A DNA stretch of 34,099 bases from Nautiliaceae bacterium (GTDB lineage Bacteria > Campylobacterota > Campylobacteria > Campylobacterales > Nautiliaceae). Position 1 is the first letter of the stretch; each line of letters begins with the position of its first letter. The notes below the pieces were generated by a model. That model made no database searches. It was not told the DNA's origin and saw only the letters and a program-made list of their open reading frames with translations. The DNA is taken from assembly GCA_027062285.1 (NCBI GenBank), contig JAMOTL010000057.1, forward strand, positions 1 to 34,099, written 5' to 3'. The position numbers and the translations under genes were made by a program. This document shows positions 3,324 through 34,099 of the stretch, in pieces.

Positions 3324-6201
3324 AGAATAAATTAAACGGCAGGGTAATAGCACGTTTGAAAAGTTGAAAAGGTGTTAATAAAATGCTTTTTCCTATGTCT
3401 TGAGTGACTTTAGGATTCTCAAGGTTTCCTTTTACAAGGATTTTTACATCTATATTTCCATCTTTTCCAAATAGAATATAACTTAAGCCTTTTCCGACAA
3501 TAGGTATTTTTTTGTATTTCATTTTCATTATAGCCGTTATTTTCAAATATATTTTTTGAGTGTTAAAATCAATATATCCTTTTCCTATAAAATCCAAATT
3601 TATTCCTGTTATTTTAAGTTGTTTAAAATATAAGATGTTTTTATAAAAAAGATAATCCACATAACCTTTTTTTATTTTATAACCTTTAGCTGAAAATCCT
3701 GGTGTATTTAGGGATAAAAGGGACGGAATTGTATTTAAAAAGGCAATAATATTATTTAATACCGTTAATTTTTTTACTATACCGGAATTAATATATATTT
3801 TTCCGGTATAAAAATTATCAGGTGATTTTACAAAAATAAAATCTAAGTTTATATTTTTGAAATTATTAAAAAAATCTAAAAGAGCTACCAGTTCTTCTTT
3901 TTCATAATGTTTGCCTTCCATTAAAAAGTATCCTTTTTTTGTGTAACCTTCTAAAAAGCTGTTTTTATATTTGGAATATATATGTAAATTATTTTTATAT
4001 TGAACGTTGGCATATTCGGATAAAAATTTATGTGAGTCATAAATGAAATTTGTATTTTTTGATTCTATTTTTACCGATAAATTAGATTCGCTGTTACTGT
4101 GTTTTGAGAAAAGTTTCGTCATTTTATCATAAATGTATATGAGTGTTTTGGTATTAATGTCTAAATTACGGACATTTACATTGATTTTTTCATAGTTGTG
4201 TATTTGAGAATAAATATATTGATTTGAAATTAAGATATCTTTAGGTAAAATCTGAATTACAGCATCTAACAGATAAGGGTTTCTTTGGTTCATAATTAGC
4301 GGTTTTTTAAGAATCAAATTGCCTTTAAGTAATATGTTTTTATCAATTTTTACATATATGCCTCCGTCTTGGATTAAATCATTAAAGACAGTAAAATCAA
4401 TGATTCTTTTTAAAGAAAGGAAAAATATTTTATTATTATTTAAATCGATGTAAATTTGTGAATTTAAAAAATAAATAATATTTTGGATAAAATCAATTAT
4501 GATTTTTTCTTTATAGTCCTGAATTTTTACTAGATTATAAATATTCATATGTTTAATTTTGGTAAAAGCGTTTAAATATGTTTTAGTCGTTGATACGTTT
4601 GCATCAGCAATGAGTTTTCCAAAATCTGTTGGAAGATAGAATTTTTTTATTTTTGTAGTAGAATTAAAATCTTTTATTTTTGATATGAGATTCTCATAAG
4701 AGAAAGTATAATTTTCGTATTTATAAATGCCGTTTGTAGAATTAATATCTAAATCCCATGAAATTTTTTTATTTTTTATAAAGTAATTTATATTTCCTTT
4801 AAGATAATTTTCTCCTCTCAGTTGCATGATAGGAAGAGTAATGTTAAATTCTTTTAAAAGTGTTTTAAGTCTTTTATCGAATTTTAAATTATTGGTATAA
4901 GTGGAAATATTGAGTAAATCATTTTTATACTTAATAAAAGTAGGGGAAAATATTATATTGTTTATATTTATACTTGCTATTACGGCTTTTTTTAGAGAAA
5001 TGTTTATTAAAGTATAAAGAAAATTAAATTTTATGTTTTTATAAGTTCCTTTAATCAGCGGAATTTCTATTCTTTTGTTGTATCCGTATATAATATCGTT
5101 ATATATTCTTAGGAGAGAGTTTTTTAAGGTATTGTCAGATATTTCGAAATAAATAAAATCTTCGAATTTTAAAAATTTACCGTTATTCGATTTAATTAAA
5201 AAATCTTTATATTTTAATGTTATTTTATCGGTATGAAGGTTAAAATTATCAATATTTTTATATGTTAAATTATTTTTATATAAGTTAATATATTTGTCTT
5301 CATAATAAAAAGAGACTTTTTTATTAAAAGGAATTATTAGTAGATTGCTTTTAATAAAATATGCACCTTTTAGATAATCGATAACCAAATTTTTGACTTT
5401 ATCGTATTTATTCAAAGTTATTTGGTCTATTGTGAATTTTATTTTATTTTTGTTTAAAGAAAAATTTATGTCTTTTAAAGCTATTTTTGAATATTTATAA
5501 TTAGCAATCAAGTTATTAATAATAACGTTGGAATTAAAGTTTTTATACCTTAAATCTATTTGTGAAGAGAGTTTGAGATTATTTAATTTGATCGGAATAT
5601 TATTGATATTTATATTTATTTTTTTTGAAGACAATGAAACATTTAATATGTCTTTTGGTGTAAGCTCGCCCTGAAGGTCTATTTTGCCGGTATTGTATAT
5701 TCCTTGTAATTTAAATATAATCGAATTCTGATATTTTATGGAACCGTTGATATTATCGAAAATGTAATTTCTGTAATTTAAGTTTAAATTTTGTAAAATA
5801 GTGTAATTTTTAAATGTATAAATCTTTCCGTTGAGATTTAATATATTGGATTTTATTATTATTTTTTTATCTGAAAATAAAATTAAGGGTATTTTTAATT
5901 CTTGATATTTTATATTTTCGAATTTTAATTTTTCAAAAATTTTATCAATTTTTGAAAGATAATAGACTTTTTTGTGAATATTTATTATGTCTTTACTTAT
6001 TTTTTGTTGAGGTATTATTGTGATAGAATTTGCTTCGAGAATAATTTTTTTATGGATTTTGACGAATAGTTTCTTTATATGAATATTATTAAATTTAAGA
6101 TCATGAAAGGTTAGTCCTTTGAATAATGAAATAAATACGGCAAATGAAAAATATAAAATAACAAAAATTATTGCCGTTATTGAAATTTTTTTGTTGCTCA
6201 T
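3322..6201 (-). CDS. Large AsmA/YhdP-like envelope protein
   Basis: This 959-residue protein has one N-terminal membrane anchor (about residues 8-28, IIFVILYFSFAVFISLF) and then a very long stretch of alternating beta-strand sequence rich in Ile, Asn, Lys and Tyr. The C-terminal 150 residues resemble the AsmA-like C-terminal domain: GKGYIDFNTQKIYLKI, then KKIPIVGKGLSYILFGKDG and GNLENPKVT. Members of this superfamily (AsmA, YhdP, TamB) are periplasmic bridges implicated in lipid transport to the outer membrane. The ATG at 6201 is supported by AAGGA 8 nt upstream. The gene looks more AT-rich than its neighbours. Its 5' end overlaps the divergently encoded mltG. The family is fairly sure; the exact role is inferred. 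Confidence 0.8.
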   Translation of the reverse strand: MSNKKISITAIIFVILYFSFAVFISLFKGLTFHDLKFNNIHIKKLFVKIHKKIILEANSITIIPQQKISKDIINIHKKVYYLSKIDKIFEKLKFENIKYQELKIPLILFSDKKIIIKSNILNLNGKIYTFKNYTILQNLNLNYRNYIFDNINGSIKYQNSIIFKLQGIYNTGKIDLQGELTPKDILNVSLSSKKINININNIPIKLNNLKLSSQIDLRYKNFNSNVIINNLIANYKYSKIALKDINFSLNKNKIKFTIDQITLNKYDKVKNLVIDYLKGAYFIKSNLLIIPFNKKVSFYYEDKYINLYKNNLTYKNIDNFNLHTDKITLKYKDFLIKSNNGKFLKFEDFIYFEISDNTLKNSLLRIYNDIIYGYNKRIEIPLIKGTYKNIKFNFLYTLINISLKKAVIASININNIIFSPTFIKYKNDLLNISTYTNNLKFDKRLKTLLKEFNITLPIMQLRGENYLKGNINYFIKNKKISWDLDINSTNGIYKYENYTFSYENLISKIKDFNSTTKIKKFYLPTDFGKLIADANVSTTKTYLNAFTKIKHMNIYNLVKIQDYKEKIIIDFIQNIIYFLNSQIYIDLNNNKIFFLSLKRIIDFTVFNDLIQDGGIYVKIDKNILLKGNLILKKPLIMNQRNPYLLDAVIQILPKDILISNQYIYSQIHNYEKINVNVRNLDINTKTLIYIYDKMTKLFSKHSNSESNLSVKIESKNTNFIYDSHKFLSEYANVQYKNNLHIYSKYKNSFLEGYTKKGYFLMEGKHYEKEELVALLDFFNNFKNINLDFIFVKSPDNFYTGKIYINSGIVKKLTVLNNIIAFLNTIPSLLSLNTPGFSAKGYKIKKGYVDYLFYKNILYFKQLKITGINLDFIGKGYIDFNTQKIYLKITAIMKMKYKKIPIVGKGLSYILFGKDGNIDVKILVKGNLENPKVTQDIGKSILLTPFQLFKRAITLPFNLF

Positions 6202-29955: not shown

Positions 29956-29985
29956 ATCTTCTAACTTCAAATGTTTCGGTTGAAT
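29956..29985 (-). repeat. Degenerate terminal CRISPR repeat
   Basis: The last 22 plus-strand bases equal the consensus; most of the first eight do not (ATCTTCTA in place of GTTTCAAT). In crRNA orientation the damaged part is the 3' handle end, so this repeat would not give a normal 5' handle. It marks the old end of the array. Confidence 0.9.
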
Positions 29986-30719
29986 AAATTAAATCATCTT
30001 CTTCAATTCCTTGAATATAAAAGTTTCAATACTTCAAATGTTTCGGTTGAATTTAATTTGCAAAAATATTTATTCAGATGCGAATTTGTTTCAATACTTC
30101 AAATGTTTCGGTTGAATGAAAACGACAGAAAGGTGATATTCGGAGTAAACAGGGTAGTTTCAATACTTCAAATGTTTCGGTTGAATCTATGAAGCAGGGT
30201 ATTATCCAGCTTATTATACGGGTTTCAATACTTCAAATGTTTCGGTTGAATTGGGTAGATTTTGAAAAGAGGGTGATTATTTATCCTAGTTTCAATACTT
30301 CAAATGTTTCGGTTGAATCTTAAATTGCCTATTGTCTCAGGCAGAGTTGTTAGTGTTTCAATACTTCAAATGTTTCGGTTGAATTAAGGTGGGCGGCAAC
30401 TGAGTTTAATGAACAAAATAGGTTTCAATACTTCAAATGTTTCGGTTGAATAAACTCCTTTTCAATATTGCTTGCACCTTTAATTGTGTTTCAATACTTC
30501 AAATGTTTCGGTTGAATTTAGAAGGTGAAGAGCTAAACTATATGCAAATAGTGTTTCAATACTTCAAATGTTTCGGTTGAATTTTTCTCCCAGTTAGTGT
30601 CTTTTGCTAAATCCGCTAACGTGTTTCAATACTTCAAATGTTTCGGTTGAATCCTGATTGATTATGTGCTTAATCCTATTTTTGAGAGCGTTTCAATACT
30701 TCAAATGTTTCGGTTGAAT

Positions 30720-30758
30720 TTTAAACACATCTTCAAAATTTTTGGGCGATTGATTTTG
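30720..30758. repeat. Duplicated spacer, copy 1 (spacer 12)
   Basis: This 39-nt spacer is identical at every base to spacer 16 (30988-31026). Its length is unusual for this array, so shared origin by copying is likely. Confidence 0.95.
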
Positions 30759-30987
30759 GTTTCAATACTTCAAATGTTTCGGTTGAATCTCTCAACCCCG
30801 ATAAAATCGATGAAATTTATTTTTGTTTCAATACTTCAAATGTTTCGGTTGAATAAGCAAGGAAAATACCGCATTACGCTATTCCTAACGGGTTTCAATA
30901 CTTCAAATGTTTCGGTTGAATACTGCTGTAACTATTGAAGAAATAGAGGCTATTAAAGTTTCAATACTTCAAATGTTTCGGTTGAAT

Positions 30988-31026
30988 TTTAAACACATCT
31001 TCAAAATTTTTGGGCGATTGATTTTG
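30988..31026. repeat. Duplicated spacer, copy 2 (spacer 16)
   Basis: It is an exact 39-nt copy of spacer 12, separated from it by three unrelated spacers. Confidence 0.95.
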
Positions 31027-32452
31027 GTTTCAATACTTCAAATGTTTCGGTTGAATATGTTAATCATCTTTCGCCTCCTGTTTTATTTTTTAGTTTCAAT
31101 ACTTCAAATGTTTCGGTTGAATTTTGCATTTTCCCCAAAGCTCCACCCGCATAACCCGAGTTTCAATACTTCAAATGTTTCGGTTGAATCCACTTATCTT
31201 TATAATCAAAACAAGGAGCAAAAAAAGTTTCAATACTTCAAATGTTTCGGTTGAATTTTGTGTTTTAGTTAGATTCTTATTTGTTAAAATCCTTGTTTCA
31301 ATACTTCAAATGTTTCGGTTGAATGAAGCACTTGAAGATGTTATAGACGAGCTTATGAGCGTTTCAATACTTCAAATGTTTCGGTTGAATCGTTGTTTCT
31401 TGCCTCTATATTTATTATCCTGCTGTGGTTTCAATACTTCAAATGTTTCGGTTGAATGAAAAATGAATTTTTTAGCCCCGTTGATTTTGATTGTTGTTTC
31501 AATACTTCAAATGTTTCGGTTGAATCTTTATTTAGAAATAAAACCTAACGGCAAAAAAACCGTTTCAATACTTCAAATGTTTCGGTTGAATGTAAAAGTA
31601 GACAAAAAAGGGAGGGAAACTTATGTCGTTTCAATACTTCAAATGTTTCGGTTGAATTACACAGGCAATCACGAACTAAACAGGCACCAAAAAGTTTCAA
31701 TACTTCAAATGTTTCGGTTGAATGTTGTTGTCCGTTTTTTCTTTTTTATTATCGTCATCTTTTCGTTTCAATACTTCAAATGTTTCGGTTGAATGGGTAG
31801 TGACTTATTATGGAATAAGAGGCAAAATAAAGTTTCAATACTTCAAATGTTTCGGTTGAATACGGGCATTTGGAGAAATTATTGTATGGAACTTAATGTT
31901 TCAATACTTCATATGTTTCGGTTGAATGAGAGTTTAGCAAGACTACAAGTAAATATTTATATATCGTTTCAATACTTCATATGTTTCGGTTGAATTTCTC
32001 AAATTTTTCTAAAACTCTAACCTGTTCGTCGTTTCAATACTTCATATGTTTCGGTTGAATCAAAGCTACCAGACTATTATTGGGGCTTATAACAGTTTCA
32101 ATACTTCATATGTTTCGGTTGAATTTATAATTCAAACTTATAAACGGGTAGCTTTTAGGTTGTTTCAATACTTCATATGTTTCGGTTGAATTTAACAGCA
32201 ACGAAGTCACCGACATATTTAGAGAGTTTCAATACTTCATATGTTTCGGTTGAATCTTGAAAGTGACGGGGTAAAATTTGATGATGATTTAGTTTCAATA
32301 CTTCATATGTTTCGGTTGAATACATATTCGAGAGTGTAGCAGAGGTTAAAAGATATGGTTTCAATACTTCATATGTTTCGGTTGAATTTAAAGATGAGTT
32401 ATCAAATTCTTGTTTATAAAGAGTTTCAATACTTCATATGTTTCGGTTGAAT

Positions 32453-32488
32453 CGCCTACGAGATGATTAAAAGCAAAGCCTTAATTAA
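32453..32488. repeat. Spacer 38, homologous to spacer 57
   Basis: The last 35 bases match the last 35 of spacer 57 (33711-33745) at 31 positions. Read as codons, the plus strand gives AYEMIKSKALI. Confidence 0.9.
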
Positions 32489-33708
32489 GTTTCAATACTT
32501 CATATGTTTCGGTTGAATCCCTAAAAAACCTATCACAAAAACCCCTATGGTAGTTTCAATACTTCATATGTTTCGGTTGAATAATAGTGAGAGTGAATGG
32601 CACGATGAGGCGGTAAAGCGTTTCAATACTTCATATGTTTCGGTTGAATAATTGAAGACAATGATTTTAAACACGTACTATTTAGTTTCAATACTTCATA
32701 TGTTTCGGTTGAATCAGCGCAAGACCTGACCTGATTAAAGAATGGAAAGGTTTCAATACTTCATATGTTTCGGTTGAATTTGATTTTTTTCTAAATGTAA
32801 ACGGGGAAAGAAAGCGTTTCAATACTTCATATGTTTCGGTTGAATGAAAATCAAGTGTTTAGATTTAAGCGAGGGCAAAAATGGTTTCAATACTTCATAT
32901 GTTTCGGTTGAATTTCAATGGAAAATTCTTATTTTTCCGAAGAGGAAAGTTTCAATACTTCATATGTTTCGGTTGAATTCTACATTGTCCTCAGTATCTC
33001 TTATAACGATAAGGTTTCAATACTTCATATGTTTCGGTTGAATACACATACAGTAATTACAAGTACAACGACAAATAAGTTTCAATACTTCATATGTTTC
33101 GGTTGAATAGGAAATATGTGCGAAATAACGGCAATAGCTGAAATGAGTTTCAATACTTCATATGTTTCGGTTGAATTTCCATCGTTTGCGTCAGTTGTAA
33201 GCACTCTATTTATAGTTTCAATACTTCATATGTTTCGGTTGAATGACAAATACAAAAATATTGAAGTTCCAGAAAATGTGTTTCAATACTTCATATGTTT
33301 CGGTTGAATCTGCAAAAGATTAGAGACAACTACGACTTAGAATTGTTTCAATACTTCATATGTTTCGGTTGAATTTTAACAGATACACTTATTAAAATTT
33401 TAGATAATAGTTTCAATACTTCATATGTTTCGGTTGAATCTTGGGAAAATAGAAATAGAAATTATTTACTACACTGAAAAAGTTTCAATACTTCATATGT
33501 TTCGGTTGAATGAAGACATAGCAGGAAAAGCAATAAGACTACTATTTGTTTCAATACTTCATATGTTTCGGTTGAATGGGATTTTTAATGTGTTTTAGAA
33601 AGGATTAAAAAGTTTCAATACTTCATATGTTTCGGTTGAATTTTTTCGCCCCCTTTTTTAATTTTTTACATAATAAGCGTTTCAATACTTCATATGTTTC
33701 GGTTGAAT

Positions 33709-33745
33709 AAGCATACGAAATGCTTAAAAGCAAAACCTTAATTAA
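33709..33745. repeat. Spacer 57, homologous to spacer 38
   Basis: The plus strand reads AYEMLKSKTLI in the frame where spacer 38 reads AYEMIKSKALI. The right-hand end is at the same position in both. Confidence 0.9.
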
Positions 33746-33973
33746 GTTTCAATACTTCATATGTTTCGGTTGAATCTTCGCAAGTCGCTACGCGACCCTT
33801 GACAAGCCGTTGTTTCAATACTTCATATGTTTCGGTTGAATTCCTAAAAAGAAAGAAGTTTTTGAATTGTATAAAAGGTTTCAATACTTCATATGTTTCG
33901 GTTGAATTTACGATCTAGATCAGAATTATTATTATTCTTGTTAGTTTCAATACTTCATATGTTTCGGTTGAAT

Positions 33974-34099
33974 TCATTAAATTTCGGGTTTTTTGAAGAT
34001 TGGAGTCCGAAATTTAGGCTTTTTCCAATTAAAATAAAATAAACAAAAAATTTTCAAAAATCTTTTAACTATCACGATTATACCGAAGTTTTTACTCGA
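33974..34099 (-). promoter_or_regulatory. CRISPR leader with -10 box and inverted repeat
   Basis: This AT-rich stretch abuts the newest repeat. Reading on the minus strand, TATAAT at 34077-34082 (preceded by GG) is placed to start pre-crRNA about 97 nt before the first repeat. A perfect 10-bp inverted repeat (33978-33987 and 34007-34016, TAAATTTCGG/CCGAAATTTA) with a 19-nt loop begins 4 nt from the first repeat. The leader probably continues beyond the window. Confidence 0.7.

Follow-up and report, generated by a model that had tools for sequence, protein, structure and literature searches.

Two diverged spacers of a Nautiliaceae type I-B CRISPR array probably sample one promoter-proximal leader in a family of tailed phages

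Introduction

The window analysed here is a contig of 34,099 nucleotides from a Nautiliaceae bacterium (JAMOTL010000057.1), and its CRISPR array holds two spacers, S38 and S57, that are diverged versions of one another, raising the question of what kind of sequence they were cut from and how it came to be stored twice. A preliminary description, made from the DNA alone, read the pair as a protein-coding protospacer under purifying selection that had been acquired on two occasions from related mobile elements. We re-examined both halves of this proposal by fixing the orientation and protospacer adjacent motif (PAM) of the system, by searching for the protospacers in viral and bacterial genomes, and by weighing the coding signature of the pair against simulated non-coding sequence.

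Results

The array (29961-33973, minus strand) comprises a degenerate distal repeat at its left end (29961-29986), 60 repeats of 30 bp and 60 spacers of 34-42 nt, and is transcribed leftward from a right-hand leader (33974-34099, minus strand) that runs up to the contig end. The repeats vary at a single position, which is A in the first 28 (CTTCAAATG) and T in the last 32 (CTTCATATG), the latter delimiting a newer array part (repeats 29-60; 31898-33973, minus strand). A different contig of this genome, C86, holds an 11-repeat array adjoining cas4-cas1-cas2 that is preceded by the same leader and whose repeats differ from those of the window at one position. Because the C86 array has the same leader, the left distal repeat is degenerate and the repeat variant divides older from newer parts, the leader end is on the right. 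The right end of each spacer had previously been taken as the 5' end of the guide, and this orientation is backed by the -ATTGAAAC end of the repeat and by a CCN PAM on the right side. One exact duplicate exists within the array, S12 and S16 (30720-30758 and 30988-31026), which have three spacers between them and reflect in-array duplication or repeated uptake.

Judged from its genes, the window system is type I-B, with a Cas1b, a Csh2-like Cas7, and a leader and repeats that tie the array to the C86 cas locus. That contig encodes Cas4, Cas1b (TIGR03641, 397 bits, cut-off 304) and Cas2, while the short contig C94 carries, in order, a Cas8b-like ORF, the Csh2-like Cas7 (TIGR02590, 162-164 bits, slightly below the 171.55 cut-off), a Cas5-like ORF and a truncated Cas3-like ORF, the Cas8b-, Cas5- and Cas3-like labels coming from reading and gene order only. 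The same genome has two more cas1 genes on one contig (C111, 2339-3106 and 9167-9874), indicating additional CRISPR systems. When the pooled spacers were compared with 21 same-family genomes, protospacers were found in prophages and mobile contigs, preceded in crRNA orientation by CCT, CCA or CCG. Pooling family genomes and phage matches, CC occupied positions -3/-2 in 18 of 22 protospacers (background 3.3%). Derived here solely from such protospacer matches, the predicted PAM is CCN and lies on the 5' side of the protospacer in the guide strand.

Four of these spacers have protospacers in a P2/Mu-like, myophage-type prophage near dnaG in genome G048 (contig C1, ~1.121-1.156 Mb), namely in its terminase (S8), repressor (S9), integrase (S24) and baseplate (S47) genes; the portal of this prophage has close relatives in four IMG/VR contigs (L089-L092). 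S54 matches contig C133 of genome G147 at 1983 and 3387, in a ~1.4-kb tandem duplication with a 148-188 aa ORF.

S38 (32453-32488, minus strand, 36 nt; crRNA from the minus strand, 5' end at 32488) and S57 (33709-33745, minus strand, 37 nt) lie exactly where they had been placed before, 19 positions apart with 18 spacers in between, and both are in the newer portion of the array as had been proposed, within the CTTCATATG-variant repeats nearest the leader. Their likeness and shared right end stand, but the earlier count of 31 identities in 35 bases left out the last overlapping base; right-aligned, they are identical at 31/36 positions, with mismatches at 11, 23, 27, 33 and 36 from the shared end (hand count). 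The match-minus-mismatch score of this pair is 26, compared with 16 for the next pair and at most 11 in six shuffled arrays, and the only stronger pair in the array is the exact duplicate S12/S16. Both guides have the same seed, from the PAM-proximal block CCTTAATTAAGG.

Phage and plasmid BLAST searches with single or pooled spacers returned chance matches only, including matches to a Helicobacter prophage and an Aeromonas RNA ligase that were inspected and dropped as chance. A pattern search for KSK[A/T]LI[K/N]G combined with the PAM led to a 42-kb IMG/VR contig (IMGVR_UViG_3300026484_000122, hereafter G399), whose flanks around the site then revealed copies of other spacers; under ungapped scoring the site itself resembles chance, and it was the flanks that made it recognisable. 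G399 encodes a terminase, a major head protein, a connector, RecT, a DnaB-like helicase and SSB, with an overlap of 806 bases between the two contig ends (96.5% identity); this overlap and gene set mark it as the nearly complete genome of a tailed phage. Another phage, G400 (IMGVR_UViG_3300006076_000010), shares 78% (terminase) and 73% (helicase) protein identity with it. No G399-like prophage was found among the 21 family genomes. G399 is a relative of the phages that S38 and S57 came from, the exact sources being absent from the collections searched.

Both spacers map to G399:4489-4524. The 20 PAM-proximal bases of S38 are identical to G399:4505-4524 (20/20) and are followed by GGG (score 40, null maximum 29), whereas S57 aligns over its full length with gaps (score 43, null maximum 31), its 12 distal bases being identical; this alignment requires two small gaps, amounting to a net 1-nt indel. 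G399 thus carries the S38 base at position 11 together with the S57 distal block and, as read from these alignments, the differences between the two spacers are alleles that are also present in relatives. The adjoining GGG corresponds to a PAM of CCC, compatible with CCN. This site, which holds one allele of each spacer followed by GGG, supports the part of the preliminary description in which related mobile elements gave rise to the pair in two acquisitions, with a common cut position and PAM.

Immediately upstream of the site, at G399:4450-4478, is a 12/12 promoter match (TTGACA-17-TATAAT), and downstream of it AAGGAG is followed by an ATG at G399:4559 that opens a 79-aa ORF (ORF1). The KSKALIKG frame of G399 has stops upstream and no start codon before the ATG at 4559. 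In G400, a homologous promoter, TTGACATTAATTTTTTTTTGATATATAAT, is followed by TCGTAAGGCAAACGAAACAAGCCGAGATGATTGAAAA, and GAGATGATT is common to the G400 leader and S38; the G400 leader aligns well in its 5' half only and, like that of G399, is not a long ORF. Given the promoter upstream, the Shine-Dalgarno sequence and ATG downstream, and the homologous counterparts of promoter and leader in G400, we conclude that the site belongs to the 5' leader of the first early gene, which runs rightward. A looser seed pattern search gave no second leader context.

A 15-bp inverted repeat (AAAGCCTTAATTAAG at G399 4511-4525, CTTAATTAAGGCTTT at 4814-4828) flanks the first early gene and is a possible operator; G400 has a similar sequence, CTTAATTAAGGGCTTT. 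A gene-junction motif resembling TATAATCAAAA-(C/G)AAGGAG is repeated before several early ORFs of G399 (5115, 6558, 8033, 8900 and 9046), and S19 matches one copy.

The leader contains an ATG in S38 and S57, and a short leader peptide starting there (MIKSKALI... or MLKSKTLI...) would mean that the site is translated, if only over a very short stretch. G400 also has this ATG, opening a 12-aa ORF (MIENRLLSQTSK followed by a stop), and its GAGATGATTGAAA comes after two strong promoters; the ATG of the source phages could likewise have opened a short ORF since lost by G399. G399 however has no ATG here, no good Shine-Dalgarno sequence precedes the ATG, and both changes 3' of it are non-synonymous, so that we consider a leader peptide improbable.

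Still less probable is the reading first proposed, in which the protospacers lie in a protein gene whose AYEM[I/L]KSK[A/T]LI product is under purifying selection. One frame is indeed open in both spacers, with two silent and two conservative changes, and S3, S22, S34, S30 and S18 do show such a pattern in real phage genes. The homologous site of G399 is nevertheless a leader, in which the frames are broken by stops and shifted by the net 1-nt indel relative to S57, and degenerate AYEM[I/L]KSK[A/T]LI patterns gave chance matches only, with no protein family, in viral contigs, named genomes and 399 same-order genomes. Of simulated non-coding pairs (35 nt, four substitutions), 94% kept one or more frames open in both members, 55% shared an open frame in which no more than two amino acids changed, and in 19% all changes were conservative; since non-coding pairs reproduce it so often, the coding signature of S38 and S57 is weak evidence. 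A non-coding origin, which the preliminary description had itself named as contradicting its reading, is what the G399 site shows for the coding half of the claim.

By analogy with the exact duplicate pair S12/S16, S57 might be an old copy of S38 that mutated in place. Such a history is highly unlikely, as the two spacers differ in length and at five positions while their flanking repeats are all identical, and as G399 has alleles of both. Finally, the best peptide-level look-alikes among relatives, a host-type nitrilase gene found in two same-genus genomes (WFEMLKSRAFMNN, three mismatches to the degenerate pattern, no GG PAM) and the portal protein of the G048 prophage (IYEAVITEAVIKG, the top peptide match with a score of 32, to which its portal relatives added nothing), can be set aside with near certainty, since their nucleotide identities of 24/32 (hand count) and 18/36 are within chance and the leader match is far stronger than either.

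Besides S38 and S57, at least 10 spacers from the window array or the sister array match G399. Within ORF1 lie the protospacers of S34 (32192-32225, minus strand; G399:4605-4638; NSNEVTDIFR versus NSDEVTDIFR, score 46, null maximum 40), S22 (31391-31427, minus strand; G399:4667-4703, PAM CCA; HSRIINIEARNN versus HSRILNVEAKNN, peptide score 55, null maximum 40) and S3 (30118-30156, minus strand; G399:4736-4774, PAM CCA; 30/39 nt; ENDRKVIFGVNRV versus ENDKKRAFAVNRV). S17 (31057-31092, minus strand) is tentatively assigned to the Shine-Dalgarno sequence and start codon of ORF1 (ATGATTAACAT, G399:4534-4569), its 25/36 nt identity being by itself within the null range and its placement relying on position and start-codon identity. 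S18 (31123-31159, minus strand) falls in the second early ORF (G399:4918-4954, PAM CCG), and further downstream are S30 (31928-31965, minus strand; G399:6739-6776, PAM CCA; 32/38 nt), S43 (32780-32815, minus strand; G399:7001-7036, PAM CCA; 33/36 nt) and S23 (31458-31495, minus strand; G399:7892-7929, PAM CCA; 33/38 nt). S33 (32125-32161, minus strand) matches, at 35/37 nt, an intergenic stretch (G399:4262-4298) that precedes the early promoter by ~150-190 bp; the two mismatches fall on the first two bases of the seed and TTA stands at the PAM position, a pattern expected of an escape variant. S32, S3, S22, S18, S34, S19 and one sister-array spacer have 73-79% identity to G399, compared with 72% at best for reversed spacers, and 11 spacers exceed the peptide null (maximum 40).

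All 14 mapped spacers (13 from the window array and one from the sister array, S17 and S19 being the weaker members) fall within 3.7 kb of G399 (4.26-7.93 kb), a mapping limited by the divergence of G399 from the true sources. Six of them, S3, S17, S22, S34, S38 and S57, lie in 316 bp (4480-4795) made up of the leader and ORF1. No PAM-flanked spacer match was found in the terminase, RecT and helicase genes of G399, and because these slowly evolving core genes, 73-78% identical even in G400, lack such matches, the bias towards the early region is probably not merely one of detection. With uniform sampling of PAM sites, 0.03 coincident pairs are expected genome-wide, as against 0.3 if only the 4.2-8.0 kb region is sampled; given the regional bias, therefore, one same-spot coincidence requires no special mechanism. 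The 79-aa ORF1 product (MINILIGDNVG...) had no PHROG family match; a role in host takeover or counter-defence early in infection is possible.

Discussion

These data make it very probable that the type I-B system acquired S38 and S57 independently, from different members of a G399-like tailed phage family, at the same CCN PAM in an early-gene leader. In both cases the cut would fall within the transcribed leader 5' of the first rightward gene, close downstream of its consensus promoter. This leader would vary among phages and tolerate indels while the PAM-proximal CCTTAATTAAGG is kept, giving the two guides an identical seed, and the exact source phages would share this leader context and carry a CCN PAM. 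The coincidence itself would follow from heavy sampling by the array of an early region of ~3.7 kb, a hot spot in which a shared PAM is unsurprising. A more ambitious proposal, which we regard as doubtful, is that CCTTAATTAAGG and its inverted copy beyond the first gene form a functional palindromic control site that phages cannot easily change, so that the spacers stored by the host settle on a conserved, PAM-locked seed within a leader that otherwise changes fast, and that the first early gene with its leader (six spacers in 316 bp) is a genuine hot spot of acquisition or selection.

Repeated CRISPR sampling of one phage family, here well resolved, is an ordinary event of a known type, and a possible hot spot at the first early gene is mildly interesting. 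Through more than ten spacers, the analysis ties an uncharacterised phage family to its host; it also establishes how the window type I-B system is oriented and which PAM it uses, and provides a concrete case in which a coding signature was misleading and the target was a promoter-proximal leader.

The Nitratiruptor phages NrS-4 and NrS-5 (Campylobacterota, vent chimney) have a RecT homologue (33% identity), but differ in genome organisation and share no DNA similarity with the targeted early region. The type I-B system of Clostridioides difficile, which takes new spacers from CCN-flanked protospacers (adaptation PAM CCN; PMC8406132), resembles the window system in its Csh2-type Cas7, Cas1b, Cas4 and CCN PAM, although it belongs to another host lineage and the window PAM comes from matches only. 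Spacers also crowd into small early-gene regions in Thermus infected with phiFa (type III), where most phage-derived spacers came from early genes and the authors credited selection, and in phage T5 with E. coli type I-E, where they came exclusively from the small pre-early region (PMC7515739). The apparent clustering on G399 resembles this, but it is deduced from a natural array compared with a metagenomic relative; if real, it would add a natural type I-B array to the known cases of early-region hot spots.
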